A DNA stretch of 20,878 nucleotides from a virus. The stretch lies in IMG/VR virus record IMGVR_UViG_3300035182_002000, positions 1 to 20,878 of that record. One strand, given 5' to 3'. The position numbers were made by a program, and so were the translations under genes. Below the pieces are notes generated by a model, which saw only the letters and a program-made list of their open reading frames with translations, made no database searches and was not told the origin of the DNA. This document shows, in pieces, positions 62 to 18,486 of the stretch (position 1 is its first letter; each line of letters opens with the position of its first letter).

Positions 62-283
62 ATGAATCATTTTTCACAAGAATTTCTTGACAAGTTGATT
101 GCAGAACATAGACTTATATCTGCTGCTATTTTACAACTATCCAGCAAACATTCTGATAGCGGCTATGCTAGATATGTGCGCTCCCATGGTGTTGATGCTG
201 TTGATCAAGCAAGAAAAAATCTCTATGTTAGGAAGGTAGAACTTGAAGCTCAGATTGACGTCTTAAGAGATTACCTAAATTGA
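62..283 (+). CDS. small hypothetical protein
   Basis: A 73-aa protein that I do not recognise. The frame is open upstream to an ATG at position 2, but the ATG at 62 is preferred because AGGA lies at 51-54, seven bases ahead of it, while the position-2 ATG has no visible upstream sequence. The protein is mostly charged and helical in character: an N-terminal stretch around FLDKLIAEHR, a central SDSGYARYVRSHG segment, and a C-terminal Lys/Glu/Arg-rich helix. There is no signal peptide, membrane segment or Cys pair. Its last nine bases overlap the 3' end of the convergent oxygenase gene on the other strand. It may belong to an operon that starts left of the window. The reading frame is convincing; the function is unknown. 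Confidence 0.6.
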   Translation: MNHFSQEFLDKLIAEHRLISAAILQLSSKHSDSGYARYVRSHGVDAVDQARKNLYVRKVELEAQIDVLRDYLN

Positions 284-1222
284 GTGAATAAGGTTGTTTG
301 CCTCTGCATATTCAAACAGATTTCTGGTCCATTTTCTTACCCCCGCAAAATATTCAGGAGTAAAATTTTCTTCATAAGACTCAACAGGAAACATTCCACC
401 ATAATGCATGCCAAGTCTATTTCTAATTCTTAAATTAGAAATAGTGTGTGTTATAAAACACGGACTAAAATCTTTAGTCGTGTTTGGCCCAGTAGTTAGA
501 AGCAGTGTTTTTGCTACAGTTTTCTCCATATCTGATAAGCCATCTAACCATCCCTTGATCCCGACGTCACAAATTAGGTGTGACCGATATTGTGCTTCAT
601 CTTCCATTTTTAGTACTGTATGTGGCTCAAAATTGTTAAAAATGTAGATATTCCCTTCATTTTGCATTCTCCAGAAATATGGAGAGGTTCTGTAAGGATG
701 GAAGTTAACACCATATGATCTACTTGAAGTGAATAATGGAACATGAATTCTAAATCCTATAAAGTGACGATAGTAACCATCACTATGCGGAAGAATGCAT
801 GTGTTTGAGTTAATAGTGTCAATGATAGCATTAAAGACAACAATCTTATCATTTAGTACAGCTTCAACACTTTCACGTATTTCTTCAATAACAGGCACAC
901 TTAGTTTCCTAAGTATTTCTGTAATTTCAGGATCATCATTATGGAGTAATAATTGTGAGTAATCGCCAGGCAACCATACTTCAGACATCTCATTAAATCC
1001 TTTCGATTTAGATTTAAAAATCTTCATATGATTGATAAGCATCATTTGCTCTTTTAAAGCAACATAGCTTGTTGACTCACCAATTTTTAGGACAGGATGA
1101 TTGCCTTCAACAGTTAAACTTAGATTTTTCTTTTTAAAATCTATGATGCTCTTAGACATGGTTTTAAGATGATCATAGATTTTCTGTTTATCGACATGTT
1201 CTAAATTGCGTAGTTCTGTCAT
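275..1222 (-). CDS. Asp/Asn beta-hydroxylase-like 2OG-Fe(II) oxygenase
   Basis: A 315-aa protein whose middle looks like the aspartyl/asparaginyl beta-hydroxylase branch of the 2-oxoglutarate- and Fe(II)-dependent dioxygenases. Visible residues are an H146-S-D148 iron-binding pair, R158-I-H160-V-P162 on the following strand, a distal H201 in NNFEPH, and R213 with H215 and D219 in YRSHLICDV, where Arg would hold 2-oxoglutarate. The spacing HxD...H...R fits the double-stranded beta-helix fold. The roughly 140-residue N-terminal region and the C-terminal 95 residues are not recognised and may set substrate choice. It is the last gene of a leftward run and starts only three bases after the PP-loop gene ends. 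The substrate is unknown; peptide side chain, free amino acid or lipid headgroup are all possible. Family call is good, specificity is not. Confidence 0.8.
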   Translation of the reverse strand: MTELRNLEHVDKQKIYDHLKTMSKSIIDFKKKNLSLTVEGNHPVLKIGESTSYVALKEQMMLINHMKIFKSKSKGFNEMSEVWLPGDYSQLLLHNDDPEITEILRKLSVPVIEEIRESVEAVLNDKIVVFNAIIDTINSNTCILPHSDGYYRHFIGFRIHVPLFTSSRSYGVNFHPYRTSPYFWRMQNEGNIYIFNNFEPHTVLKMEDEAQYRSHLICDVGIKGWLDGLSDMEKTVAKTLLLTTGPNTTKDFSPCFITHTISNLRIRNRLGMHYGGMFPVESYEENFTPEYFAGVRKWTRNLFEYAEANNLIHSI

Positions 1223-1225
1223 TAT

Positions 1226-2161
1226 TTATCCTTCTGTTAGCATAGTAACTAACTGTTCATATGAAAATCGTTGTGCAGAATGCGATGTGCTATATTGGAC
1301 ATACTTTGCCAGTTCTTTGTTTATAGAGACAATATCTTCCCTATTCTTTAGGTCTTCAAAACCATCGCTCTTAAAGCGTTCACGCAAGTCTAAAACTCTT
1401 TTATAAAAAGAATATTTGGTGCTGCGTGAATTTATTTTACCGGGTAACTGGCCCGTACAACATAATTTAACTTCTTCATCAGATAAAAATGACATTAAGA
1501 ATTCAGGCGACCACTGAAAAAATCCTGGAACTGCTGTTAGATTAAAGTTTAATACAGTATAGTACCAAGGCATCATGTATTCAAGCTCAACATACGACCA
1601 TTTTCCACCTTCATTTAAAAATAGCACATCAGCGTTCCCTAAAACTGGTACCCATCCTTCATTGCTTTTACGAATCATAGCCATCGCAATCGGCATCATA
1701 AAGATTAATTTACAGTTTGTTTTAAGTGCTAGTTGTTTTGCTGCATCTGATTTAAGCACTTGTACTATGTCTACAATTTCCTGATGAAAGTTTATTCGAT
1801 GAGCATTTTTAGAAACAAATGTATCAACATCTATTTGGTCATAATAGTTAATGAGCTTACCTTCTGAAATGTATCTAATATTAAAGATGTCAATCTTTTC
1901 ATCTGTTGAATCTATAAACATCCTCGCCATTGCTTCACAATCACGGCCACCAGAATAAAAAAGTAATGGTTTTTTACCTATAAGTTTTGCACGCTGAGTA
2001 ATTTCTTTGGCAGCTATCATTCCTTCAGTCTTAAAATCTTGCCATTGGCGCTCACATTTACCAAACGCAGAAAAGAAAAGATCAGCATAATCAGTTCGCA
2101 TCGTGAATGGTTGATTATTTACCCCAAATACAAAATGATTGTTCTTTGTCATTTCAAACAT
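1226..2161 (-). CDS. PP-loop ATPase-like protein (ATP pyrophosphatase fold)
   Basis: A 311-aa protein with a P-loop-like ATP pyrophosphatase motif at residues 70-75 (SGGRDC) on a hydrophobic strand, KPLLFYSGGRD. In the family (PAPS reductase, tRNA thiolation and QueC-type enzymes, asparagine synthetase) the motif is SGGxDS and grips ATP, which is cleaved to AMP and pyrophosphate to activate a substrate. Here Cys replaces the final Ser. A second conserved-looking part lies around residues 167-222 (GWVPVLGNAD, KWSYVELE, FFQWSPEF). The ATG at 2161 is preferred over an in-frame ATG nine bases later because AGGAG sits seven bases upstream. It overlaps the preceding gene by eight bases, suggesting translational coupling. 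Substrate is unknown; the neighbours suggest a biosynthetic or modification role. Confidence 0.75.
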   Translation of the reverse strand: MFEMTKNNHFVFGVNNQPFTMRTDYADLFFSAFGKCERQWQDFKTEGMIAAKEITQRAKLIGKKPLLFYSGGRDCEAMARMFIDSTDEKIDIFNIRYISEGKLINYYDQIDVDTFVSKNAHRINFHQEIVDIVQVLKSDAAKQLALKTNCKLIFMMPIAMAMIRKSNEGWVPVLGNADVLFLNEGGKWSYVELEYMMPWYYTVLNFNLTAVPGFFQWSPEFLMSFLSDEEVKLCCTGQLPGKINSRSTKYSFYKRVLDLRERFKSDGFEDLKNREDIVSINKELAKYVQYSTSHSAQRFSYEQLVTMLTEG

Positions 2162-2621
2162 TTCTAAGCTCCTGTTTCAAACATGCCTTCATTATAATTC
2201 TATCATAAGGAGCTGCAAGGTATAAAATAATATAATCATTTACAAATTCTATGTTAGAAAAATTATGCGCGAGTACTTTATTTACCCTATACAAGTCAAA
2301 AGACTCTGCAAGCGCCTCTTGTAAATCATAATTTTCAACGAAGTAAACATCTCTTGGTTTTTTTTCTTCTATAAGTGACATTAGTGCTTGAACAGAAGGA
2401 ACGGCACTCATTCCATCAACTATACACAGACCTGAGTCAAACTCGCTTTCTGTGTAATATAAATCGCCTGGTTCGTTGAAACATTCAATAACCCCAAAAT
2501 GCGTTACATTTGGGTTTAGGAAGTAATTATCTAAAAGGCGTGTATCAGTTTTGTTATAAAGCTTCGATATTAAGTGTTCACGATAAAGCTTCATATCTTG
2601 ATTTGAATTATCAGTCTGCAT
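2154..2621 (-). CDS. hypothetical protein in oxygenase/PP-loop cluster
   Basis: A 155-aa protein that I cannot assign. It is acidic in the middle (GDLYYTESEFDSG), followed by a possible small alpha/beta region (PSVQALMSLIEEKKPRDVYF) and a hydrophobic strand near the C-terminus (DYIILYLAAPYDRIIM). There is no signal peptide or metal-binding Cys/His set. It lies between the second oxygenase-like gene and the PP-loop gene on the same strand, 33 bases after the former and overlapping the latter by eight bases, so it is probably co-transcribed and may be an accessory subunit or carrier. The first ATG has only a purine-rich stretch upstream (AAGAAG), so the in-frame ATG at residue 10 is an alternative start. 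Confidence 0.6.
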   Translation of the reverse strand: MQTDNSNQDMKLYREHLISKLYNKTDTRLLDNYFLNPNVTHFGVIECFNEPGDLYYTESEFDSGLCIVDGMSAVPSVQALMSLIEEKKPRDVYFVENYDLQEALAESFDLYRVNKVLAHNFSNIEFVNDYIILYLAAPYDRIIMKACLKQELRNV

Positions 2622-2654
2622 AAAACTATATCTTCTTATTTTACTTATAAGATA

Positions 2655-3407
2655 TCAATTTGATTGATTTTCTAAGTATTTTTTAATTTTTTGACGTGTA
2701 TCTTCTGTAAAAATTCCATCAACCCTTAGACTTATTACTAAACGATTAGATGGGTCTGACCCATGAAAATCAGAATTATTAAAAGTTACAGCCCGCGCAT
2801 TTCCAAAATAATGCTTTATGTTATTTTTTTCATCGTAAACAAAGAATTTTTTATCATTCTTGCTTAAGGAAATCCAAATAAATTCATCTTGAAGATGGTA
2901 ATCTCTGTGAATTGGTGTAAAGCTGTGATGCTCGTTTCTGAACAATACAATTCTACCAAATTCTTCAAATAAACCCCAAGATTTGATTTCATCTACAATA
3001 AATGGAAAATTTTCTATAACTGGTTTATCAACACAGTTTTCCCAACGTTCTTTACCATTATAAGCACCAGATGAGGTATTTCTTATTGAACATGATGCCC
3101 CAATATAAGCACAAGGATATTTCAAATTTAAATATTCCATTCCCTGATATGGATCCAGCTGTGTCAGCGTTTTAAAGTCTGGATGTTGTGGCGATTGCAA
3201 AACATTTTTGTAAAAAGAAAGTAACTCTGTTTGAGTCTGGTCAAACATTGTGTGTTGAGTGCCTATGAAAGCAGTAACAAAATGTGGTCTAGATTTAGCT
3301 ATTGCAAATATCATCTTGTCTATGAATGAATCAAAATCATTAAATACAATTGCACCAGCTTTTTCTAAATCAACAAACGGAATGCTTGAATTGTTGTAAC
3401 CTTTCAT
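2655..3407 (-). CDS. 2OG-Fe(II) oxygenase-like protein
   Basis: A 250-aa protein whose C-terminal half fits a 2-oxoglutarate/Fe(II) dioxygenase beta-helix: H167-R-D169 within FTPIHRDYH, a strand FIWISLS, a strand KFFVYDE, then H215 in NNSDFHGSD and R228 in SLRVDG. HxD...H would bind iron and R228 the 2-oxoglutarate carboxylate. The first 130 residues carry no recognised motif. The start is firm: AAGGAG lies seven bases upstream of the ATG. It leads a leftward run with the unknown 155-aa protein, the PP-loop protein and the Asp/Asn-hydroxylase-like protein. A GATAAATA octamer on the minus strand (3446 to 3439), 31 bases ahead of the start, could be a late promoter for the run. Substrate is unknown. 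The enzyme call rests on motif order only. Confidence 0.68.
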   Translation of the reverse strand: MKGYNNSSIPFVDLEKAGAIVFNDFDSFIDKMIFAIAKSRPHFVTAFIGTQHTMFDQTQTELLSFYKNVLQSPQHPDFKTLTQLDPYQGMEYLNLKYPCAYIGASCSIRNTSSGAYNGKERWENCVDKPVIENFPFIVDEIKSWGLFEEFGRIVLFRNEHHSFTPIHRDYHLQDEFIWISLSKNDKKFFVYDEKNNIKHYFGNARAVTFNNSDFHGSDPSNRLVISLRVDGIFTEDTRQKIKKYLENQSN

Positions 3408-3438
3408 GTTGTATCTCCTTATAAGATAAGATAAGAAA

Positions 3439-3446
3439 TATTTATC
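3439..3446 (-). promoter_or_regulatory. putative T4-like late promoter
   Basis: On the minus strand this reads GATAAATA, one base from the T4 late octamer TATAAATA, and lies 31 bases before the start of the leftward oxygenase run. The same spacing is seen at the two neck genes. The region is AT-rich, so a chance match is possible. Confidence 0.4.
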
Positions 3447-3496
3447 TTTTAATCATTCTGTATTTTAAATAATGTTATATTTTTAGGAGTTAAAAT

Positions 3497-4282
3497 ATGT
3501 TAAGATCGCGGTTTTTCCTACTGCAATTTCTTCCAGCACATTTAGTGTTTCTTGCATCTATATTGCTTATAGAAAAAATTACAATCCCAATGTTAATTTC
3601 ATGGTTTCTTTTATGGGTAATCGTTGGTGGATTTGGTATTGAGGTTGGTTTTCATAGAGCAATAAGTCATAATCATTTTCAACTATCTGAAAGAACTAAG
3701 AAAATTTTAGGTATTATAGGTATGTTTGGTATGAATGGCGCTCCTATGTCTTGGCGAGCCATGCATGTAGTTCACCACCGTTTTGCAGACACAGAGAATG
3801 ATCTTCACTCTCCTATTCACGGTTTTGTTCAGTCCTATTTATCGTACACGTGGAAGGTTGAACAAGAAAGTAAAAGCGGAAATCTTGCCTTTAGGCTTGC
3901 TGTAAAGCAAATGATGAAAGATCCGTTCTGGGTATTTTTAGATAAATGGGTACACATTATAGTGTTTACAACGCTGGTATTATCACTTATTATTTCTCCC
4001 ACAATAGCTTTTGTTATATCAGCAACAATGATAGCTTGCTATAATCAAACAGCATTTGTTAATGTTTTTGCACATGGAACTAATGGTAAGCGTTCGCATG
4101 ATACTAAAGATCATTCATTAAATCGACCAATACTCGGGTACTTTACATTTGGTCTGTCACTTCATAATAATCATCATTTCAATCCAGGAAATCCTAATTT
4201 TGGTGAAGATAGATATCTAGATATTGGATATGTTTTTGGAAAAATGGTTAAATTTTTAGATGAAAAATTTTCACTTAGGTAA
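3497..4282 (+). CDS. acyl-lipid/acyl-CoA fatty acid desaturase
   Basis: A 261-aa integral membrane protein with all three histidine boxes of the delta-9-type desaturases: H53-RAIS-H58, H90-VV-HH94 (followed by RFADTENDLHSP, very close to the family consensus) and H223-NN-HH227. H193 in FAHG may be a further ligand. These histidines hold the di-iron centre that introduces a cis double bond into an acyl chain. Hydrophobic segments lie at about residues 6-25, 31-50, 152-172 and 170-190. Length is near that of short bacterial desaturases. The start has AGGAG seven bases upstream. It is divergent from the oxygenase run across an 89-base AT-rich gap. The gene is probably a host-derived auxiliary metabolic gene that alters membrane lipid unsaturation during infection. 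Confidence 0.92.
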   Translation: MLRSRFFLLQFLPAHLVFLASILLIEKITIPMLISWFLLWVIVGGFGIEVGFHRAISHNHFQLSERTKKILGIIGMFGMNGAPMSWRAMHVVHHRFADTENDLHSPIHGFVQSYLSYTWKVEQESKSGNLAFRLAVKQMMKDPFWVFLDKWVHIIVFTTLVLSLIISPTIAFVISATMIACYNQTAFVNVFAHGTNGKRSHDTKDHSLNRPILGYFTFGLSLHNNHHFNPGNPNFGEDRYLDIGYVFGKMVKFLDEKFSLR

Positions 4283-4366
4283 ACCAATCTTATTCATTTT
4301 GCTTGATAATCTTTGGAAAAACTGTTTAAATGAACACAACGTTCTAAATATTGAAGATTAGAATTA

Positions 4367-4374
4367 TATAAATA
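4367..4374 (+). promoter_or_regulatory. putative T4-like late promoter (exact TATAAATA)
   Basis: An exact TATAAATA lies in the 175-base gap after the desaturase gene, 83 bases ahead of the 99-aa gene at 4458. A second, imperfect copy (TATAAATG) follows at 4405-4412. The gap holds no other clear feature; I see no strong terminator for the desaturase gene. Confidence 0.5.
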
Positions 4375-4457
4375 GCATATATGAATTTAAAGTGTCTATT
4401 AAAATATAAATGACTTTTAAATTAAACACTCAAAAACCACCATTTTAAGGAGTTAAC

Positions 4458-4757
4458 ATGGTAATAGTTACAACTACAACTGTTCGTCCAAATGCAAATG
4501 TGCCTTTCTATCTTCAAAGTAATCCTAGTTTAAGAGAACAATTTAACAAATTTATGAATGGACATCCAAAAGTTAAATCCAGATCATCTGTCTTATCTGA
4601 GGATACTCTTACATTTAAAACTGTTATAGTCTGTGATTCTCAAGAAGATTTAGAAGCAATTCGTAATGATGTTAATGCAGCATTTCCTAATTTTTATCAA
4701 AACCGCAAAGATTACTGTGATGCACACAATATCAAAATTGATGTAACTGTAGAATAA
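4458..4757 (+). CDS. small hypothetical phage protein
   Basis: A 99-aa soluble protein that I do not recognise. It opens with a Thr/Val-rich strand (VIVTTTTVRP), has a basic patch (GHPKVKSRSS) and ends with an alternating strand (NIKIDVTVE), giving an overall alpha/beta look with a helix at about residues 61-73. The start is clear, with AAGGAG six bases upstream. A TATAAATA octamer 83 bases upstream suggests late expression, so it may be a minor virion or assembly protein. The next gene starts 18 bases after its stop and is likely co-transcribed. Confidence 0.65.
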   Translation: MVIVTTTTVRPNANVPFYLQSNPSLREQFNKFMNGHPKVKSRSSVLSEDTLTFKTVIVCDSQEDLEAIRNDVNAAFPNFYQNRKDYCDAHNIKIDVTVE

Positions 4758-4775
4758 TAATTTTAATTTAATTAC

Positions 4776-5306
4776 ATGCAATTTCTAATTGATAATCCAA
4801 GTACTGAAACTAAAAATTTTATAGCACCTTTTTTTAATGGTGCTATTGTTGATTATCCAGGGGTAAATTCTGAAGAGATTGTTATTGCACGTGATGATTC
4901 TGGAATAATTCAAGGCGTCTTGCAATATCGTGTTAGCCTTTATAACATGGTTGCTGCAATTATATTTGTATGTGTTTCACCGGGTGCTAAACTGTCAGTA
5001 TTCGGTGGGTTGATTGATAAATTTCTGACAAGAATTGAAGAATTAGGAATTACAACAATCTATGCAACAATCCCCAAAAAGCATTATGATTCATATTCAA
5101 TAGCAGATAAAAAAAGACAAGAAAATATTCGAAAACGTCGGTATCCTATGATGTTGCGTTGGCAATCATATCTTCAGGAAATAATACCTACACAGCAAGT
5201 TTCTTCTGCACATGTGGTAAAAATGCATACACTTTCAGGTAGAACTTACTTAAAACCGACTATTATTATAAAGTACGAACTTAAAGATGAATTTAAAAAA
5301 ATATGA
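4776..5306 (+). CDS. possible GNAT-like acetyltransferase fold protein
   Basis: A 176-aa protein. Residues 34-100 show a pattern that could be a GNAT fold: a strand with DDSGIIQGVLQYRV, a hydrophobic strand AAIIFVCVSPGA, a helix LIDKFLTRIEELG and a strand ITTIYATI. This matches the order of strands 2-4 and helix 3 around the acetyl-CoA site, but a clear Q/RxxGxG/A loop is not visible, so binding may be altered or absent. The C-terminal half is basic (KKRQENIRKRRYP) and ends in a beta-rich tail. There is no good Shine-Dalgarno; the gene probably depends on the preceding gene 18 bases upstream. The reading frame is convincing and the fold call is tentative. Confidence 0.5.
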   Translation: MQFLIDNPSTETKNFIAPFFNGAIVDYPGVNSEEIVIARDDSGIIQGVLQYRVSLYNMVAAIIFVCVSPGAKLSVFGGLIDKFLTRIEELGITTIYATIPKKHYDSYSIADKKRQENIRKRRYPMMLRWQSYLQEIIPTQQVSSAHVVKMHTLSGRTYLKPTIIIKYELKDEFKKI

Positions 5307-5414
5307 ATTTCGAAAGATAAATTCGGTGGAAATAAATTCTGTGTGTTAGTATAAATTAAATCTTAATGAGATGCTTATGCACAAATGATAAAGCTGCTAT
5401 TGACTATGATGTGT

Positions 5415-5450
5415 TATTTTAAAATCAGGCTACTAAGTATTTTAAAATCA
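5415..5450. repeat. 13-bp direct repeat with palindromic core, next to a C9 tract
   Basis: The 13-mer TATTTTAAAATCA occurs at 5415-5427 and again at 5438-5450, and its core ATTTTAAAAT is a 10-base palindrome. Six bases after the second copy is a run of nine C (5456-5464), unusual in this AT-rich DNA. The 189-base gap between the two convergent genes holds nothing else clear apart from a possible terminator. Confidence 0.5.
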
Positions 5451-5480
5451 AATAACCCCCCCCCATTTAAGTTAAGCAAC

Positions 5481-5510
5481 CACACTAGTAAATTTTTACT
5501 GTGTTTTTTT
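5481..5510 (+). terminator. possible bulged hairpin terminator
   Basis: CACA...GTAAA pairs with TTTAC...TGTG (5481-5503) with a three-base CTA bulge in the left arm, followed by seven T (5504-5510). It would end rightward transcription from the 4458-5306 pair. It overlaps the 3' end of the convergent LysM-like gene. The stem is weak and bulged. Confidence 0.3.
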
Positions 5511-5726
5511 ACAAAATGCTCTTTCTTGATGTCGTGCTAAGATAGGAATAAGAACCGCCATTCCAGGTCTAGGTATCTGCAAGTCTGGATTACAGTGCTT
5601 GAACTGCTCTAAAAGAATTTTCATTTCATCATTAGTTACATCATAAAAATTGTACTTTTTTATGGCCGCGACAACTGTTTCGCCTGGCATAAATAAGTGG
5701 TCAATTGTTTTTGGTCTATCTTTCAT
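5496..5726 (-). CDS. small LysM-like protein
   Basis: A 76-aa protein that resembles one LysM unit: residues 13-61 run MPGETVVAAIKKYNF, then a linker helix, then CNPDLQIPRPGMAVLIPI. The closing N-P-x-x-x-I-x-x-P-G-x-x-x-x-I-P pattern is the strongest part. LysM units bind peptidoglycan-like glycans, and phage baseplate and tail proteins (T4 gp53 among them) carry such folds. There is no signal peptide. The start is supported by a strong AAGGAGG four bases upstream. It is divergent from the epimerase gene, 37 bases away, and is a lone minus-strand gene. It could be a small tail or baseplate-associated protein. Confidence 0.6.
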   Translation of the reverse strand: MKDRPKTIDHLFMPGETVVAAIKKYNFYDVTNDEMKILLEQFKHCNPDLQIPRPGMAVLIPILARHQERAFCKKTQ

Positions 5727-5746
5727 ACATCCTCCTTAGATATTTT

Positions 5747-5754
5747 TATTTACA
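5747..5754 (-). promoter_or_regulatory. possible late promoter variant
   Basis: On the minus strand this reads TGTAAATA, the same variant seen ahead of the gp14-like gene, but only 20 bases from the LysM-like start. The short spacing makes this the weakest of the octamers. Confidence 0.22.
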
Positions 5755-5763
5755 CTTATCAAA

Positions 5764-6675
5764 ATGAACAATATACTCGTAACTGGTGGTCAGGGATTTA
5801 TTGGCCAACATTTAGTAATGTCACTAATTGATCTTGGCTACAGCGTTACTGTAGTAGATTATGATGCAAGCGTCCCTTGTCATGCTAATTTTTTCTATCC
5901 TCAAGATTGTTCTTTGTTCTTTGAACAAAGAATGATTCAATTTGATACTGCTAATCTTCGTGATATCTTAGGCGATCCTGTAAAATATGATCTTGTTATT
6001 CATTTAGCTGCTATTCCTAGAGTAGGCATATCGCTGAACGCGCCGGCGCGTGTCATTAAGAACAATGTTAATTCAACTATTTTTGCTGCAGAATACTGTA
6101 GAAAAGCAGGCATTCCTCTTATCAACATTTCAAGCAGTTCAGTAGTGTGGGCTGATTGTGATAAGAACCCTTATGCCCTTAGTAAGAAGATGGGTGAACA
6201 GATTATTAACACATATAGAGAAACTTTTAATGTAAAAGCAACTAATGTACGCCTGTTCAACGTGTATGGTCCTGGTGAAAAAGATAATGGCAATTATACT
6301 ACACTAATCAGAAGATGCAAGACTGCTTTAAGAACTAAAACACCACTTCCACTTTTTGGCACAGGTGAAAATCGACGCGATTACACACACGTCTTAGATG
6401 TAGTTCAGGGAATTATTCTTGTCATGCGTGATGTGCAGCAAAACACATTTAAACCAGTTTATGAACTTGGGTCTGGAACAGGGCATATTTCAGTAAATGA
6501 CATAATTAAAGAATTTAGCGAAGCAGGTTTAACTGTTGATCCTCAACCTGCTAGACCGGGTGATCCGCCATTGACAAAAGCTGATACTACTCTTTGGCCA
6601 GAAGGGTGGGCACCTAAAATAGATGTTTTGACCCACATTCGTAATTGGATTCATATGGGGTGTCAACACGACTAA
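5764..6675 (+). CDS. NAD-dependent epimerase/dehydratase (extended SDR)
   Basis: A 303-aa member of the extended short-chain dehydrogenase/reductase family, typical of nucleotide-sugar epimerases and dehydratases. It has the N-terminal Rossmann motif TGGQGFIG (residues 7-14), HLAAIPRVG at 80-88, a Ser cluster at 123-126, and the catalytic Y137-ALS-K141. Length is near that of UDP-glucose 4-epimerase-like proteins. No good Shine-Dalgarno is visible, but the Rossmann strand must begin at this Met, so the start is safe. It sits immediately before the virion genes and is read in the same direction. It probably acts on an NDP-sugar, supplying a sugar for virion or DNA glycosylation or altering host surface sugars; the substrate cannot be read from the sequence. 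Confidence 0.9.
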   Translation: MNNILVTGGQGFIGQHLVMSLIDLGYSVTVVDYDASVPCHANFFYPQDCSLFFEQRMIQFDTANLRDILGDPVKYDLVIHLAAIPRVGISLNAPARVIKNNVNSTIFAAEYCRKAGIPLINISSSSVVWADCDKNPYALSKKMGEQIINTYRETFNVKATNVRLFNVYGPGEKDNGNYTTLIRRCKTALRTKTPLPLFGTGENRRDYTHVLDVVQGIILVMRDVQQNTFKPVYELGSGTGHISVNDIIKEFSEAGLTVDPQPARPGDPPLTKADTTLWPEGWAPKIDVLTHIRNWIHMGCQHD

Positions 6676-6679
6676 GAAT

Positions 6680-6687
6680 CATAAATA
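6680..6687 (+). promoter_or_regulatory. putative T4-like late promoter
   Basis: CATAAATA lies just after the epimerase stop and 31 bases before the gp13-like neck gene. It fits the NATAAATA series found ahead of most virion genes in the window. Confidence 0.5.
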
Positions 6688-6718
6688 CACATATGTAACA
6701 ATTTTTAGGGCCTGATAA

Positions 6719-8590
6719 ATGTCAGATCAAATTCAACTTACATCTCATCAACTTTGGATTGATGGCCGTCTTATAAACATCACGGTAACAAAGTTAACAC
6801 CGACATCTATAAGATTGACATGGAATATTCCATCTCCTTCGCTTGTCTATGATGGAGCTGTTGTTCTATTATCTGAACAAAAGTTTACACCAGAAGAATT
6901 TCCAGTTGACGGAACAAGATATCACGCGTCTACAGATTGGGCTGCACCTGCTGATAAAATTGGAAACGCGCACGTTGTTGCAGCATTTTACGGGTTCTTT
7001 GGGGATAATGTCAACCAAACTTCGGTTGATGTTTTTAACATTGATCCCAATAAGTTATACTATGCGTCCATTCATGCAGCATCAAATGCTCTACAGTACT
7101 ACACGATTGGTAAACAATCATATCCTGTTGAGACATCACTATTTGATAAGGGTTTCCAAACGTATGCAGGAGCGATTCCACGCTCTAATATAGCACCAGA
7201 GAACCCTTACAATGGTCAAGTATACTATGAGCCTTCTTCAAACAATGTATTTGTTTGGAATGCATCATTACAGGCATGGGTTGTAGCTACAGATAAGACT
7301 ATTCCAGTAGGAATTAGGCCGCCAATCGGTATTAACTATTTGTTCTTTAATGAAACTGATCAAAACCTTAAATTCTTTGACGGTCATACATGGGTTGTTT
7401 GTAATTCATCAAATACTCGAGTAAAGCTTGGAGCTAGCTGGGTGCCATATGCTGGAGCAACTGTATCTGGGGATTATCCAACAACACCAACAATTGGCGA
7501 GTTTATACATCTAACACTTAAACCAACTGTTGGTGGTCCATCAACAGTTCTTCTCCAAGTTTATACATTAGGTGGATGGTTTTCCCCAACGCCTGACTTG
7601 ATGCAAGTGTCAAGTGATGGTGGTTTAACCTGGTACCCTATTAGCATTGGAGATCCAGCGTATGGAACAGTTGACCCAAATATTCCACAAGTTGGAGATT
7701 TCTTCTATGATTCTAGCAAGCGTGACCTACTTGTATGGGATGGAACCAGCTGGACTAAAGCCGACACAGACAGTGAAGGTTCACCAACATCTGATAGACT
7801 TGGTGTAGGTACTGATGGTTCACCAAGTGAACGTTTGCGTCTTATAAATGTTCTTAAGCATCAGTTAGGGTACCCTCAGGTGTGCGTTGAACTTTCTGAG
7901 GAGCATTTTCAAATCGCTATTGATAATGCACTTGATACGTTTAGGCAGAGATCGGATAATGCGTACGCACATTGTCACATCCTAATAACATTAAAGCAAG
8001 GACAAACAACATACTATCTAAATGACCCACGTAATAAAACGGACAGAATCGTAAATGTTATTAAGGTTCATCGTGTTAATATGTTAGGTTTGAATAGTTT
8101 TTCTTCAGATACAGGTCTTTATGCACAAGCATTTTTTAATCAGTTGTTTCAAGGTGAGATGATTGATTTAACATCAATTCATTTATTTCAACAACTTTCA
8201 GAACAATTCGATAGAATCTTTGCTGGTGACCTTGTTTTTACGTGGGATGAAGTATCACGACAGCTTACCATTTTAAGACGTCTAGTTAATCAAGAGGAAC
8301 GTGTTGTTCTTGAAGTTGTTGTTGAACGCACTGAGCAAGAACTTCTTGTGGATCGTTGGGCAAAACAGTGGCTTCAGGGATGGGCAGAATCTGAATTGAT
8401 TGAAACGTTAGGTATGATTCGTTCTAAGTATGGTACCCTTCCAGGTCCTAATGGTGGTATTACTCTAAATGGTGCAGAACTTTTATCGATAGCAAGTGAA
8501 AAACAAACAGAACTTCTACGTCAGATTCTTGACTATGAAGTTGGAAATGGGGGCGTAAACTTTGGTAACACCGCGTTCATGATTGGCTGA
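6719..8590 (+). CDS. gp13-like neck protein with extended N-terminus
   Basis: A 623-aa virion protein. The C-terminal 255 residues resemble the T4-type gp13 neck/head-completion protein: LRLINVLKHQLG at 373-384, an acidic helix ending NALDTFRQRS, then DRWAKQWLQGWAES from 545, a PNGGITLNG stretch at 577-585, and the typical terminal FMIG. T4 gp13 is about half this length, so the first 360 residues are an extension. It opens with a fibronectin-III-like stretch (ITVTKLTPTSIRLTWNIP, 21-38) and carries three units of a beta motif ending in aromatic-x-G-x-x-W (about 166-189, 204-227 and 326-347), as seen in phage fibre and decoration proteins. A late-type octamer lies 31 bases upstream. The gp13 assignment is moderate; the structural role is firmer. 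Confidence 0.72.
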   Translation: MSDQIQLTSHQLWIDGRLINITVTKLTPTSIRLTWNIPSPSLVYDGAVVLLSEQKFTPEEFPVDGTRYHASTDWAAPADKIGNAHVVAAFYGFFGDNVNQTSVDVFNIDPNKLYYASIHAASNALQYYTIGKQSYPVETSLFDKGFQTYAGAIPRSNIAPENPYNGQVYYEPSSNNVFVWNASLQAWVVATDKTIPVGIRPPIGINYLFFNETDQNLKFFDGHTWVVCNSSNTRVKLGASWVPYAGATVSGDYPTTPTIGEFIHLTLKPTVGGPSTVLLQVYTLGGWFSPTPDLMQVSSDGGLTWYPISIGDPAYGTVDPNIPQVGDFFYDSSKRDLLVWDGTSWTKADTDSEGSPTSDRLGVGTDGSPSERLRLINVLKHQLGYPQVCVELSEEHFQIAIDNALDTFRQRSDNAYAHCHILITLKQGQTTYYLNDPRNKTDRIVNVIKVHRVNMLGLNSFSSDTGLYAQAFFNQLFQGEMIDLTSIHLFQQLSEQFDRIFAGDLVFTWDEVSRQLTILRRLVNQEERVVLEVVVERTEQELLVDRWAKQWLQGWAESELIETLGMIRSKYGTLPGPNGGITLNGAELLSIASEKQTELLRQILDYEVGNGGVNFGNTAFMIG

Positions 8591-12318: not shown

Positions 12319-12354
12319 ATGAAAATTACTTGTTTTTCAAAAAAGCCATGAATT
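12319..12354 (+). other. degenerate copy of the amidoligase gene start
   Basis: These bases align with the first 40 bases of the amidoligase-like gene (10697-10736): ATGAAA-TTACTTG, TTTT, then AAAAGCCATGAA, with three mismatches and a few gaps by my hand alignment (32 identical positions). It is frameshifted and stops after ten codons. It looks like the relic of a second gene with the same leader peptide, cut off where the endonuclease gene now ends. Chance is possible in AT-rich DNA. Confidence 0.4.
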
Positions 12355-14050
12355 AAGGTAACACCCAAGTAGAGACACCACAATCTTTAATTTGATGCCA
12401 ACCATTTATTAACATATTTTGTTCTTCTGTTAGTGATGGATCAAAAGCATTTCCCAGTATTTTCACGAGCTTGTGTTTTTGACATTCCATTCTTGATAAT
12501 ACATTAGTTCCTTTTACATAGTAATAGTTTGGTTGTCTATCTGCAATCATTGTAAAACCAAGCTTTTTATAAGAATGACCATCAAAAAAGCGTCTGTCTG
12601 CATATGTTATTATTCTTCCAGTATATTTTGATCTAAAATACGACAGACATTTTCCAAATCCACCCAACACTGTATACCCAATTTTAGAACAACTTCTAAT
12701 AATTTCCCACTCAGCATTTTTTGAAAAGCGAGGTCTTCCAAAAGATGTCATGAACACGATGTCATCATCCATTTTTAACGCTATATTATGGGTATGCCTA
12801 TTACTTTTTCCATGAATGTGATTTTCTTCATAGAAATTTTTAGCAACAACTGAATCAACAATTTCAATTGTGCATTTACGTGCAAAAATCTTTTTTGTCT
12901 TTCCAAGTTTAGATAGAATTATATTTTCAATAATAGGTCGTTTTACCGCCCATTCATAATCCCATATGTGAAGAAGCTGTATATTATTTTTTTCGGCAAG
13001 CTTTGTTTTTTCAAGCAATGGTGTATATTCTTTTTTAGTTGAATGCCAATACACACCATTTAATTCTATTCCAAGTGAATAGTCTGGTAGCCAAATATCT
13101 ATTTCCTTTTTAGATGGTAATAACAGGTCACGACGACCCCTTTCTACTTTTGCGTACTGCGATAAGAATTCAAATAAGCTTTCTTCAGGAGTTGACTTAG
13201 GTCTACAATTAGGACATTGCGTGGGCCCACCATAATTAAGATAGTGAAAAAAATGGCGACCACAGTCAATATGCACCCATTCATGCTTTTTTCCGCTATC
13301 TGAATAGTCATGTTGCCCAACTGGAACAACATTATAATGTTCTTTAATTTCTTTTAAAAGTTTTGGTACAACTTTTTCAATGTAATTCGCTCTATAAGTT
13401 AAGTTAATTTTCTTTTTTACATTGGGGTTTTGAGAAACATTATCACATCCATATTTTTCACGGACAGTTTTTCGTATCTTTTCTTTTGTTGATTCTGAAT
13501 GCGTCCATTTTTCAGTATTATTGTTTTTCCATTTTTTCCATCTCGTTTTTGATGCATCTGATACTTGTTTTTTTCTGTTGCAAATTGGGCAACCAGCTAA
13601 CCATGCCCCCGCATAAAGACTTCTTTTAAATGAATGATCAAAATGTATCCATTCTACTTTTTGTGTTATTAACGTTGGTACAACTTTTGGAGTAATCCCA
13701 AGTTTAGCAAGATCCTGCAAAATAGAAGCAATTTTGCCCGCATTTTTAGCTTCTTGTTTTTTTGATCTATTACTTGCGGTCAAAATAGAAGAGCATGATT
13801 TGCTGCATGTTTTTGAAAAGTCATTGAAAAATGTGACTCTTTTATTACATACTGGGCATTTTGGCCAAGTACGAAAATTAGAAATTAATGCTCTTGCCTT
13901 TTGCAGATTGCTTTCAAAATCTGATAAATATTTAAATGCTTCAGAGTTTTCTAACTTGGCTAGCTCGGCTGCCCGAATCTTAGGATGCGCATTAATCACA
14001 CTAACACACTTTTCGTATTCGTAAGGAAATTGTTCTTTTAAGGAAATCAT
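12353..14050 (-). CDS. Vsr-fold (EDxHD-type) homing endonuclease
   Basis: A 565-aa free-standing homing endonuclease. The N-terminal half holds Cys pairs that could bind zinc (C65-x2-C68 with C82-x3-C86; C154-x2-C157; C279-x2-C282) and a KYGCDNVSQNPNVKKKI stretch typical of phage Hef-like DNA-binding regions. The nuclease core is EIDIWLPDYSLGIELNGVYWH (residues 316-336), as in Vsr-like EDxHD endonucleases, with E289/E290, D318, E329, H336 and D364 as candidate active-site residues. Residues 390-565 form a GNAT-like module ending in DCGVSTWVL, shared with the other endonuclease in this window. It lies opposite to the virion genes, and its ATG abuts that of the gp15-like gene (CATATG, 14048-14053). 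No Shine-Dalgarno is visible, so it may be poorly expressed. Confidence 0.85.
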   Translation of the reverse strand: MISLKEQFPYEYEKCVSVINAHPKIRAAELAKLENSEAFKYLSDFESNLQKARALISNFRTWPKCPVCNKRVTFFNDFSKTCSKSCSSILTASNRSKKQEAKNAGKIASILQDLAKLGITPKVVPTLITQKVEWIHFDHSFKRSLYAGAWLAGCPICNRKKQVSDASKTRWKKWKNNNTEKWTHSESTKEKIRKTVREKYGCDNVSQNPNVKKKINLTYRANYIEKVVPKLLKEIKEHYNVVPVGQHDYSDSGKKHEWVHIDCGRHFFHYLNYGGPTQCPNCRPKSTPEESLFEFLSQYAKVERGRRDLLLPSKKEIDIWLPDYSLGIELNGVYWHSTKKEYTPLLEKTKLAEKNNIQLLHIWDYEWAVKRPIIENIILSKLGKTKKIFARKCTIEIVDSVVAKNFYEENHIHGKSNRHTHNIALKMDDDIVFMTSFGRPRFSKNAEWEIIRSCSKIGYTVLGGFGKCLSYFRSKYTGRIITYADRRFFDGHSYKKLGFTMIADRQPNYYYVKGTNVLSRMECQKHKLVKILGNAFDPSLTEEQNMLINGWHQIKDCGVSTWVLP

Positions 14051-16875: not shown

Positions 16876-18486
16876 ATGCTTACATGTATGGTTTGCGGGT
16901 ATGAACACCCGTCAATGATCTCACCATCGCACTTGAAAAAACACGGTTTAACTGCTGCGGATTATAAAGCTAAATATCCAGAAAGCGTGTTAAGAGTGCA
17001 GTCTGCTGAAACAAAGAATAAAATAGCAGCTTCCAAAGTTGGAAAGCCAGCATGGAATAAGGGCGTTTCAACTGGTCCAAATAAAAGGCTTTCTGAATCA
17101 ATGTCAGGTAAACCAAAACCACATTTAAAGGGAAAAACAAGAACTGAAGAACAAAAACAAAAAATTTCAGAAGCCACTAAAAAAGCAATGGTTGGTAAGA
17201 TGACTGATTCAGTTAAAAACAAGTTGTCAGAAGCCATCAAAATCAAAAAGATGAATGGCACATATGTTCCGCCAATGCTTGGAAAGCACTTAAGTGAGAA
17301 TGCTAGGAAAAGGATATCTGACTCTTTATCAGGAGAAAACAACTGGGCACGAAAAAGGTTTATCTCAAAAATACAAGAGCTATGCAAGCAGGAAAATTTA
17401 GAGTTTTTAGATAGAGAGCAATCTGCTAAAACAGGTACACGTCTAAATTTTAGATGCAACAAGTGCCATTATGTATTTTCATTTGGAATGGGCTATTTCT
17501 CAAATTCGCAAATTAAGTTAGGACACGCTGTTGAAAGTGGCATTTGCCCATCTTGTAATCCTAGAATTAAAACTAAGTCAGCTAAAGAGTTAGAGCTTTT
17601 AGAATATGTTCGCTCGCTTGTTGGTGATGAAGAAATAAAAAGTGGAAATAGATCAGAAATTTTTCCTTATGAACTAGACGTATATCTGCCATCAAGGAAA
17701 ATAGCAATAGAATTTTGTGGTATATACTGGCATACAGAAGGTGTATCAGCAAAAAGCAATGTTAAAGCACGGCGAGAATATGAAAAATATTTAATGTGTT
17801 TGGAAAAGGGCATTCGTCTAATAACAATATTTGAAGATGAATGGGATTTCCAGCAAAATATAGTAAAAGATAGACTACGTCATATTTTAGGTATAAAAGG
17901 TAAGATAATTGGCGCGCGAAAATGCAAAATTGAACAAATTCCATTTAATGTGAAAAATGATTTTTTAAACACATATCATATTCAAGGCGCAGACAGAGCA
18001 AAAATAAGCCTTGGTGCTTTTCATGAAAATGAATTAATCGCGGTTATGACATTTAGTCCTACAAACTTCACAAAAGGTGGAGATGGGTCACAAATTGAAT
18101 TGAACCGATTCGCGCTTGCTGCTGGAATACATTCTCCAGGCATAGCAAGTAAATTCATAAAGTATTTTCAAACATACTTAAATCCTAACGGAATGGACAT
18201 AATTTCATATTCAGATAACAGATGGTCAGCTGGTGGCGTTTATAAAAGCATTGGATTCATTGAGGCAGCAAAATCTGGTCCATCTTACTTTTACGTTGAT
18301 ATGAAAAGTTCAAAGAAAATAAGAAAGCACCGATCTAACTTTATGAAACACCGATTACAGAAAATCTTTGGTAAAACACTAGACTTAACCTTATCTGAAT
18401 GGGAAATCATGCAACAAGAAGGCTATGACAGAATATGGGACTGTGGTACAACAAAATGGATATTGTGTGCTAATAATCATAAATAG
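16876..18486 (+). CDS. Vsr-fold (EDxHD-type) homing endonuclease with NUMOD-like repeats
   Basis: A 536-aa free-standing homing endonuclease. It starts with a MucR/Ros-like zinc element (C4-x2-C7, SHLKKHGLTAADYKAKYP), then NUMOD3-like DNA-binding repeats rich in K-I-S-E and G-K (residues 45-155), a zinc-like pair of Cys pairs (C194/C197, C224/C227), and the nuclease core YELDVYLPSRKIAIEFCGIYWH (265-286), with E238, D268, E279, H286 and D321 as candidate active-site residues. Residues 347-530 are the GNAT-like module shared with the first endonuclease, ending WDCGTTKWIL. The AGGAG is ten bases from the ATG, which is rather far. It sits between the sheath terminator and a damaged small gene, and its stop codon overlaps a CATAAATA octamer that probably served the downstream gene. 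Confidence 0.86.
   Translation: MLTCMVCGYEHPSMISPSHLKKHGLTAADYKAKYPESVLRVQSAETKNKIAASKVGKPAWNKGVSTGPNKRLSESMSGKPKPHLKGKTRTEEQKQKISEATKKAMVGKMTDSVKNKLSEAIKIKKMNGTYVPPMLGKHLSENARKRISDSLSGENNWARKRFISKIQELCKQENLEFLDREQSAKTGTRLNFRCNKCHYVFSFGMGYFSNSQIKLGHAVESGICPSCNPRIKTKSAKELELLEYVRSLVGDEEIKSGNRSEIFPYELDVYLPSRKIAIEFCGIYWHTEGVSAKSNVKARREYEKYLMCLEKGIRLITIFEDEWDFQQNIVKDRLRHILGIKGKIIGARKCKIEQIPFNVKNDFLNTYHIQGADRAKISLGAFHENELIAVMTFSPTNFTKGGDGSQIELNRFALAAGIHSPGIASKFIKYFQTYLNPNGMDIISYSDNRWSAGGVYKSIGFIEAAKSGPSYFYVDMKSSKKIRKHRSNFMKHRLQKIFGKTLDLTLSEWEIMQQEGYDRIWDCGTTKWILCANNHK
18478..18485 (+). promoter_or_regulatory. putative late promoter overlapping the endonuclease stop
   Basis: CATAAATA forms the last His and Lys codons and part of the stop of the endonuclease gene. 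It lies 33 bases before the ATG at 18519, the same spacing as at the neck genes. The endonuclease gene thus ends right on the promoter of its neighbour. Confidence 0.45.

Follow-up and report, generated by a model that had tools for sequence, protein, structure and literature searches.

Gene content and extent of the island

The window, that is, the whole 20,878-nt stretch of IMG/VR virus record IMGVR_UViG_3300035182_002000 analyzed here, carries near its start (positions 275–5306) a compact run of metabolic genes for two 2-oxoglutarate (2OG)-Fe(II) oxygenase-like proteins (A and D), a PP-loop protein (B), a membrane desaturase (E), and three smaller proteins (C, f99, and g176). The same few families recur together, in varying order, in many phage contigs, and we describe the run as an island of the mix-and-match type, not as a fixed operon. 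The genes are as follows:

275–1222, minus strand: A, 315 aa, aspartyl/asparaginyl beta-hydroxylase-like 2OG-Fe(II) oxygenase
1226–2161, minus strand: B, 311 aa, stand-alone amide-synthetase-like PP-loop enzyme
2154–2621, minus strand: C, 155 aa, overlaps the start of B; candidate diverged GNAT-like partner (weak)
2655–3407, minus strand: D, 250 aa, 2OG-Fe(II) oxygenase-like protein
3497–4282, plus strand: E, 261 aa, stearoyl-CoA-desaturase-like membrane di-iron desaturase
4458–4757, plus strand: f99, 99 aa, small conserved island protein
4776–5306, plus strand: g176, 176 aa, GNAT-like; its family is found beside desaturase and PP-loop genes

The original prediction had described open reading frames (ORFs) A to E as a cassette at 275–4282, and these were recovered at the same coordinates and with the same spacing (A–B gap of 3 nt, B–C overlap of 8 nt, C–D gap of 33 nt); D and E are divergent, 89 nt apart. 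The end proposed at 4282 does not hold: because f99 and g176 have relatives in islands of this kind, the island appears to extend to at least 5306. A purine-rich stretch precedes A, B, D, and E, and scans for promoters and terminators gave nothing better than shuffled sequence.

B belongs to a large phage family with an amide-synthetase fold

B itself has no significant match in Pfam, PHROGs, or NCBIfam, including Asn_synthase/asn_synth, QueC, and TilS. Single-sequence searches were fruitless (A, B, and D against viral contigs; B against genome contigs; tblastn of A, B, D, and one D homologue against phages; phmmer against the PDB), because such searches need close relatives, and a motif pattern followed by a profile then succeeded. 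The pattern returned 27 viral stretches, each with an ORF bearing the PP-loop motif; a family profile built from their full-length members, with B excluded, scores B at 142 bits (E = 1.4e-45) and finds relatives in at least 143 viral stretches. By sequence, B is therefore assigned to a large family of uncultured-phage proteins, whose nearest members among the best 80 of the 143 relatives (in loci L071 and L072) are 28–30% identical to it; tblastn with three family members against 50,697 named phage records gave no match. Profile matches to HIV gp120 were discarded as chance, as were Pfam/PHROG matches of B, C, and D above E = 0.02 (HexPS-like, dynein, and others).

The family carries the SGGxDS PP-loop motif, which in B reads S70 G71 G72 R73 D74 C75 E76, with a Cys at position 75 where nearly all other members have Ser. 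S70, G71, G72, D74, E76, N105, K264, G267, and E269 are invariant in 51/51 members, and the active-site motif of B is intact. An AlphaFold2 (AF2) model of B, made from an alignment of 51 rows out of 153 PP-loop hits, is confident (pLDDT 95.3), and its top fold matches (VIA Z scores) are asparagine synthetase (Z = 15.1–15.9) and beta-lactam synthetase (13.9–14.3), followed by carbapenam synthetase (12.5–12.8) and the hydroxyamidotransferase TsnB9 (11.6). These amide-synthetase matches (Z = 11.6–15.9) cover 245–273 residues, as compared to Z ≤ 10.7 for LarE/NAD synthetase; the match lists hold other PP-loop families too, and absence of a family from them is no proof. The best match in a viral structure library is an uncultured-phage protein (TM 0.84), and another match is labeled asparagine synthase. 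Profile and fold together thus bear out the PP-loop identity proposed for B.

A complete N-terminal Ntn (glutaminase-type) domain was not found in B, which has 311 residues and whose alignment begins at about residue 56–77 of the synthetases. Sequence and model suggest that B works like an asparagine synthetase, yet we do not class it as one because this complete N-terminal domain is missing. The family profile also matches a 623-aa protein in L236 (E = 6.6e-12) that starts with MCGI and that we call an asparagine synthetase because of its N terminus and size. A second, longer PP-loop family (∼390 aa) occurs in the same islands (L071 4668–5849 and 8345–9571; L218 2305–3483 and 3465–4634), and a single locus can hold up to seven PP-loop hits.

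Oxygenase-like proteins A and D and desaturase E

A lies above the curated Pfam cut-off for Asp_Arg_Hydrox (PF05118; 24.8 versus 22.6 bits, residues 110–220), with H146-x-D148, H201, and R213 as candidate iron/2OG residues (R213 was counted by eye). D has no significant match in Pfam, PHROGs, or NCBIfam, and its H167-x-D169, H215, and R228, invariant in 5/5 homologues, form an intact HxD...H...R motif of 2OG-Fe(II) oxygenases; its closest homologues are found in L192 (7244–8083, E = 1e-35) and L188 (10481–11320, E = 1.8e-35). The call of two oxygenase-like proteins therefore stands, and comparison with characterized families places A in PF05118 and leaves D without a Pfam match.

E is well above the FA_desaturase cut-off (PF00487; 62.8 versus 29.7 bits), as expected of the di-iron fatty-acid desaturase first proposed, and has the three histidine boxes of the stearoyl-CoA-desaturase type intact, H53, H58, H90, H93, H94, H193, H223, H226, and H227 being invariant in 26/26 sequences. 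By family, A, D, and E would all need iron and oxygen, as foreseen for three of the five proteins. Relatives of E were found in at least 576 viral stretches. A desaturase filed under Acinetobacter phage MD-2021a (CAKLQH020000002.1, L229) was not counted as a phage island because the flanking tryptophan synthase, cobalamin transporter, and BaeS/BaeR genes look like bacterial chromosome; indeed, the whole 18.6 kb read of this record looks chromosomal.

The small proteins g176, f99, and C

A profile built without g176 finds it at E = 9.7e-10 (28.5 bits), and 72/94 ORFs of its family have a desaturase or PP-loop gene no more than 150 nt away; the label GNAT-like comes from a weak match of g176 to a PHROG acetyltransferase (E = 0.0055) and from reading of the sequences. 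The f99 family, with phmmer matches in L123 (5963–6274, E = 2.9e-8) and L218 (647–991, E = 4.2e-6), is present in 36/148 island loci and 0/29 control loci.

C, originally left without an assignment, indeed has no significant match in Pfam, PHROGs, or NCBIfam. Its phmmer matches are L157 8711–9310 (E = 1.3e-4) and L071 9583–10011 (E = 0.018), the latter overlapping a PP-loop gene as C overlaps B. A profile built without C and its seeds recovers C only at E = 0.0067, behind the homing endonuclease HE2 (0.0011); the AF2 model is useless (pLDDT 35.7, 3-row alignment). None of six C-family members has a Pfam GNAT match, and an iterated search gathered 135 ORFs, possibly by drift.

The gene families recur together in phage islands

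Within ∼10 kb of the PP-loop gene, an E-like desaturase is present in 64/80 PP-loop loci (the best 80 of the 143 relatives) and in 30/40 clusters at 60% identity. The reverse comparison began with 79 out of at least 576 desaturase relatives, less 11 contigs shared with the PP-loop set (identified by contig name, by eye); among the 68 independent desaturase loci, in stretches reaching up to 8 kb to each side, the PP-loop family was found in 45, and in 35/49 of those longer than 14 kb. Because the desaturase loci are the best matches to an alignment whose sequences came from PP-loop islands, these reverse counts are biased upward.

Among ORFs no more than 1.3 kb from a PP-loop gene (150/163 scanned with Pfam), FA_desaturase is the commonest neighbor family (17 matches), followed by Radical_SAM (7), Asp_Arg_Hydrox and FA_hydroxylase (5 each), and TauD, PhyH, and Rieske (3 each), together with several GNAT models. 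Of 62 ORFs at least 8.5 kb away, none matched a desaturase, Asp_Arg_Hydrox, or GNAT model, and there were single matches to TauD, Rieske, FA_hydroxylase, and radical SAM; the excess of desaturases near the PP-loop gene has a Fisher p of 0.004. In 29 control loci (442 kb, some slightly overlapping, for example, L005 and L029), no PP-loop or D homologue was found, and the only desaturases were the two that had served to retrieve L025 and L026. A PP-loop gene and a desaturase lie within two genes of each other in 17/30 loci, as compared to a mean of 10.7 when gene order was shuffled (17 of 2000 shuffles were as high).

The PP-loop/desaturase association is thus real but moderate, with partly dependent seeds, and the D and GNAT-like families share in it: D homologues occur in 20/148 island loci, 19 of which also carry the PP-loop family and a desaturase, within a search confined to loci picked beforehand by PP-loop or desaturase. 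Gene order varies among the islands, which makes this a mix-and-match island; the conservation of the whole order that had been proposed as a check was not seen. The functional link suggested at the outset fares better: we did not observe these genes singly and scattered in related phages, the same families recur in one island, and the five genes are not a chance collection.

In several clusters, FA_hydroxylase-like genes lie immediately upstream of PP-loop genes. In L146, a small ACP-like ORF of 81 aa (DSLDAVEL, by eye) directly precedes and overlaps the B-family gene at 5688, a hint of acyl chemistry.

The island adjoins tail genes

The window is most likely a fragment of a jumbo-type myovirus, to judge by its tail sheath, which among named phages best matches Stenotrophomonas phages CM1 and RAS14 and Xanthomonas phage XacN1 (319–385 kb). 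Its island adjoins head-tail adaptor genes and has no glycosyltransferase in the run. In three loci with a related sheath (L188, L192, and L197), an island separates the sheath gene from the tube gene; B-family, D-family, and desaturase genes are all present in L188 and L192, and the similar island of L197 includes a PP-loop gene and a desaturase but gave no D match. The order in L188 is methyltransferase-like, Asp/Asn-hydroxylase-like, Rieske-like, D, a second PP-loop gene, a 216-aa protein, desaturase, GNAT-like, B family, GNAT-like, and hydroxylase-like, where labels given without a score come from reading of the sequences. A PHROG tally of large ORFs (80/105) gave scattered tail-fibre matches only.

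Two further genes follow the island:

5496–5726, minus strand: h76, small ORF adjoining the head-tail adaptor gene in several relatives
5764–6675, plus strand: nucleoside diphosphate (NDP)-sugar epimerase (Pfam Epimerase, E = 7e-46; PHROG nucleotide-sugar epimerase, E = 8e-56)

In several relatives (L005, L007, L010, L016, and L023), h76 is a near neighbor of the adaptor gene, so the epimerase counts as an extra in the window; it may or may not be an island member. By eye, h76 is LysM-like. A second contig, L002, is the same as the window from 5471 through its end and starts just past a run of nine C at 5456–5464, probably the point at which its assembly stopped; because L002 starts only at 5471, no second contig spans the cassette. 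Further along, two homing/HNH endonuclease-like genes (12353–14050, minus strand, and 16876–18486, plus strand; PHROG 3339/559) flank the sheath stabilizer and sheath genes, and the second is additionally Mom-like (E = 2e-8). At the other end of L027, a contig overlapping the window, positions 163–8546 hold at least five paralogous ORFs sharing a YRGD/SRSFI/EIW pattern, along with a P-loop kinase-like ORF; we take the paralogues to resemble ADP-ribosyltransferases and the SFKQFL-E-like N termini with which several of them start to resemble capsid-targeting sequences.

Bacterial relatives of B

The B family is matched in 8/191 Bdellovibrionota-type genomes (one via an asparagine synthetase and one via a short partial match). 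Matches to the B profile in 2/194 Cyanobacteriota genomes were not counted, the frames (508 and 597 aa) being of asparagine-synthetase-like size. With one phylum having family members and one (Cyanobacteriota) lacking them, it looks as if the synthetase is common to phages and bacteria and the combination is a phage habit.

In genomes of the Bdellovibrionota type, B-family genes recur beside or near genes with a Tat-like RR signal, some of them short and Cys-rich, a possible pairing of synthetase and exported substrate seen in an uncontrolled comparison at L239 7678–8115, L240 3116–3469 and 17309–17800, L245 6652–6999, L242 8488–9513, L248 8184–9143, and L249 8258–9307.

A tentative role in envelope tailoring

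We tentatively propose, at somewhat short of an even chance, that 275–5306 is an example of a recurrent, mix-and-match tailoring island and that this island remodels a lipid or glycolipid of the host envelope. E would introduce a double bond into a membrane acyl chain; hydroxylation of the acyl chain or head group would fall to A and D; B, like asparagine and beta-lactam synthetases, would activate a carboxylate as acyl-AMP and couple an amine to it, without a glutaminase of its own; and the GNAT-like g176, possibly with C, would acylate an amine. Together, these enzymes may remake an envelope lipid or glycolipid during infection, such that the altered surface blocks adsorption of competing phages (superinfection exclusion) or the membrane is adapted for the phage. 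PF05118, the family of A, takes in LpxO and OlsC, enzymes that add a 2-hydroxyl group to the acyl chains in lipid A and ornithine lipid. We infer an envelope lipid or glycolipid as the most economical common substrate. The leaning toward lipid rests on the stearoyl-CoA-desaturase-type histidines of E, the FA_hydroxylase-like neighbors, the ACP-like ORF, and a freshwater pelagimyophage gene set in the available passages of PMC7029224; a purpose at the surface fits the position beside tail genes and the suggestion, in the same passages, that the pelagimyophage host recognition cluster changes the surface against coinfection.

A number of observations weigh against this proposal, in addition to the bias of the reverse test and the preselection of loci searched for D. 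After clustering, only 11/21 desaturase groups have a PP-loop neighbor, and in bacteria a desaturase lies near (∼3 kb) a B-family/PP-loop gene in only 1/13 stretches (L243). Single-sequence searches found neither A nor B in the 14 nearest sheath-related records (0/14 for each). Relatives have, by reading, exonuclease-like and capsid-side genes upstream of h76 and no such island; on that side, XacN1 carries genes for ribonucleotide reductase. The tie of A to its island homologues appears weak (the best is L098 4331–5167, E = 4e-4), as does the case for C as a probably diverged GNAT-like protein, which is weaker than that for g176. By sequence, only E is clearly a lipid enzyme; relatives of B also form free asparagine, lactams, and peptides, and Radical-SAM, methyltransferase, Rieske, and ATP-grasp neighbors suit a wider small-molecule or glycan pathway equally well. 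What the data show are the families, the active-site motifs, and the association; all of the chemistry is inferred.

Such a pathway is the strongest alternative, albeit one we consider rather unlikely: the island would tailor a glycan or small molecule, yielding a sugar or amino-acid compound that is hydroxylated, amidated, and N-acylated and is either attached to lipopolysaccharide (LPS) or capsule or released, and the desaturase would serve a lipid carrier. B is similar to beta-lactam and carbapenam synthetases, which in the clavam and carbapenem pathways work alongside 2OG oxygenases; the NDP-sugar epimerase adjoins the island; related islands hold glycosyltransferase-like (by eye), radical-SAM, methyltransferase, and carbamoyltransferase genes; and an island of Pelagibacter phage Mosig EXVC030M combines aminotransferase, carbamoyltransferase, Asp_Arg_Hydrox, and desaturase genes beside tail fibres. 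The commonest neighbor family, the desaturase (17/150), is, however, an acyl-chain enzyme, and the window's own run has no glycosyltransferase.

Less probable still is modification of a protein or peptide, with a peptide or tail protein receiving side-chain amides or macrolactams from B and hydroxyl groups from A and D. Lasso-peptide cyclases are also AsnB-like, and the PF05118 family hydroxylates Asp/Asn in proteins; the tail-gene neighborhood and the Tat-like RR-signal genes, some small and Cys-rich, in several Bdellovibrionota-type loci would fit as well. No precursor peptide was seen in the window, however, the desaturase would have no obvious role, and the Tat pattern is a loose regular expression applied without a control.

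That unrelated host-derived genes were gathered at a permissive hotspot without joint function we regard as improbable. Gene order is fluid, desaturases stand alone in L025/L026, 23/68 independent desaturase loci have no nearby PP-loop gene, and in bacteria B-family genes occur without such an island; against this, the same few families occur together in many phage contigs, often with short overlaps, and in 0/29 control loci. Modification of tRNA or nucleobases by a QueC/TilS-like PP-loop enzyme with oxygenases is very improbable, for although B-family members weakly match QueC (10/21 in Pfam, 6/21 in NCBIfam) and TilS (10/21), B itself matches neither and folds best onto amide synthetases (Z = 11.6–15.9 versus ≤10.7 for LarE/NAD synthetase), and a membrane desaturase would be out of place. 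Among the pathways initially offered, lipid or amino-acid-type tailoring has thus gained ground, at the expense of the other two.

Taking the envelope-tailoring proposal one step further, it is conceivable, though doubtful, that uncultured phages, jumbo phages included, share a previously undescribed modular biosynthetic system in which a stand-alone AsnB-like amide synthetase, iron/oxygen-dependent hydroxylases, and a membrane desaturase make a phage-specific amide-linked lipid or lipid-like compound to remodel the host envelope in the course of infection, the parts being shuffled between phages together with tail genes. If the islands make one product class, then a chemistry widespread in phage infection has gone unnoticed, being rare in cultured phages. 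The gene set is small (six or seven genes) and could be expressed and assayed directly.

Comparison with known systems

As far as literature searches go, the statement that no named phage system has exactly this content holds: an association of PP-loop, desaturase, and oxygenase genes was not found described in the literature searched, most subscription papers being outside its reach. Tail-side metabolic islands as such are already known in pelagimyophages.

At the level of single enzymes, B shares the synthetase-domain fold and the PP-loop with asparagine synthetase B and the beta-lactam and carbapenam synthetases, and differs from them in sequence (∼10% identity) and in the incomplete or missing N-terminal glutaminase-type domain. 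A scores above the cut-off of the family that includes LpxO, OlsC, and AspH and differs in its length of 315 aa, with extensions on either side of the matched residues 110–220. The amidoligase systems of phages are alike in that a phage amide-forming enzyme is proposed to alter the cell wall against superinfection; unlike the AsnB-like PP-loop protein B, phage amidoligases are reportedly ATP-grasp or glutamine-synthetase-like ligases, going by the title of the 2009 study by Iyer et al.

At the level of gene neighborhoods, the island of Mosig EXVC030M (MT647606, L028) is similar in having Asp_Arg_Hydrox, desaturase, taurine-dioxygenase-like, and N-acetyltransferase genes adjoining tail fibres, and differs in that no B-family PP-loop gene was found in its 16.4 kb. 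The available passages of PMC10580990 treat phage amidoligases as modifiers of the cell wall, and those of PMC9599517 describe pelagiphage podoviruses with co-located 2OG oxygenases and ferrochelatases. The corresponding passages of PMC7029224 report freshwater pelagimyophages with fabF, a stearoyl-CoA desaturase, and a 2OG-Fe enzyme, and an Asp/Asn beta-hydroxylase that is core to all members; they name neither a PP-loop protein or amide synthetase nor an association of the present kind. The host recognition cluster that they describe in pelagimyophages and cyanomyophages contains tail fibres and glycosyltransferases and is bounded by VrlC and gp14 of T4-like phages, whereas the window island lies beside head-tail adaptor genes. 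Without being a member of that cluster, the window island embodies the same idea, a large, variable metabolic island beside tail genes.

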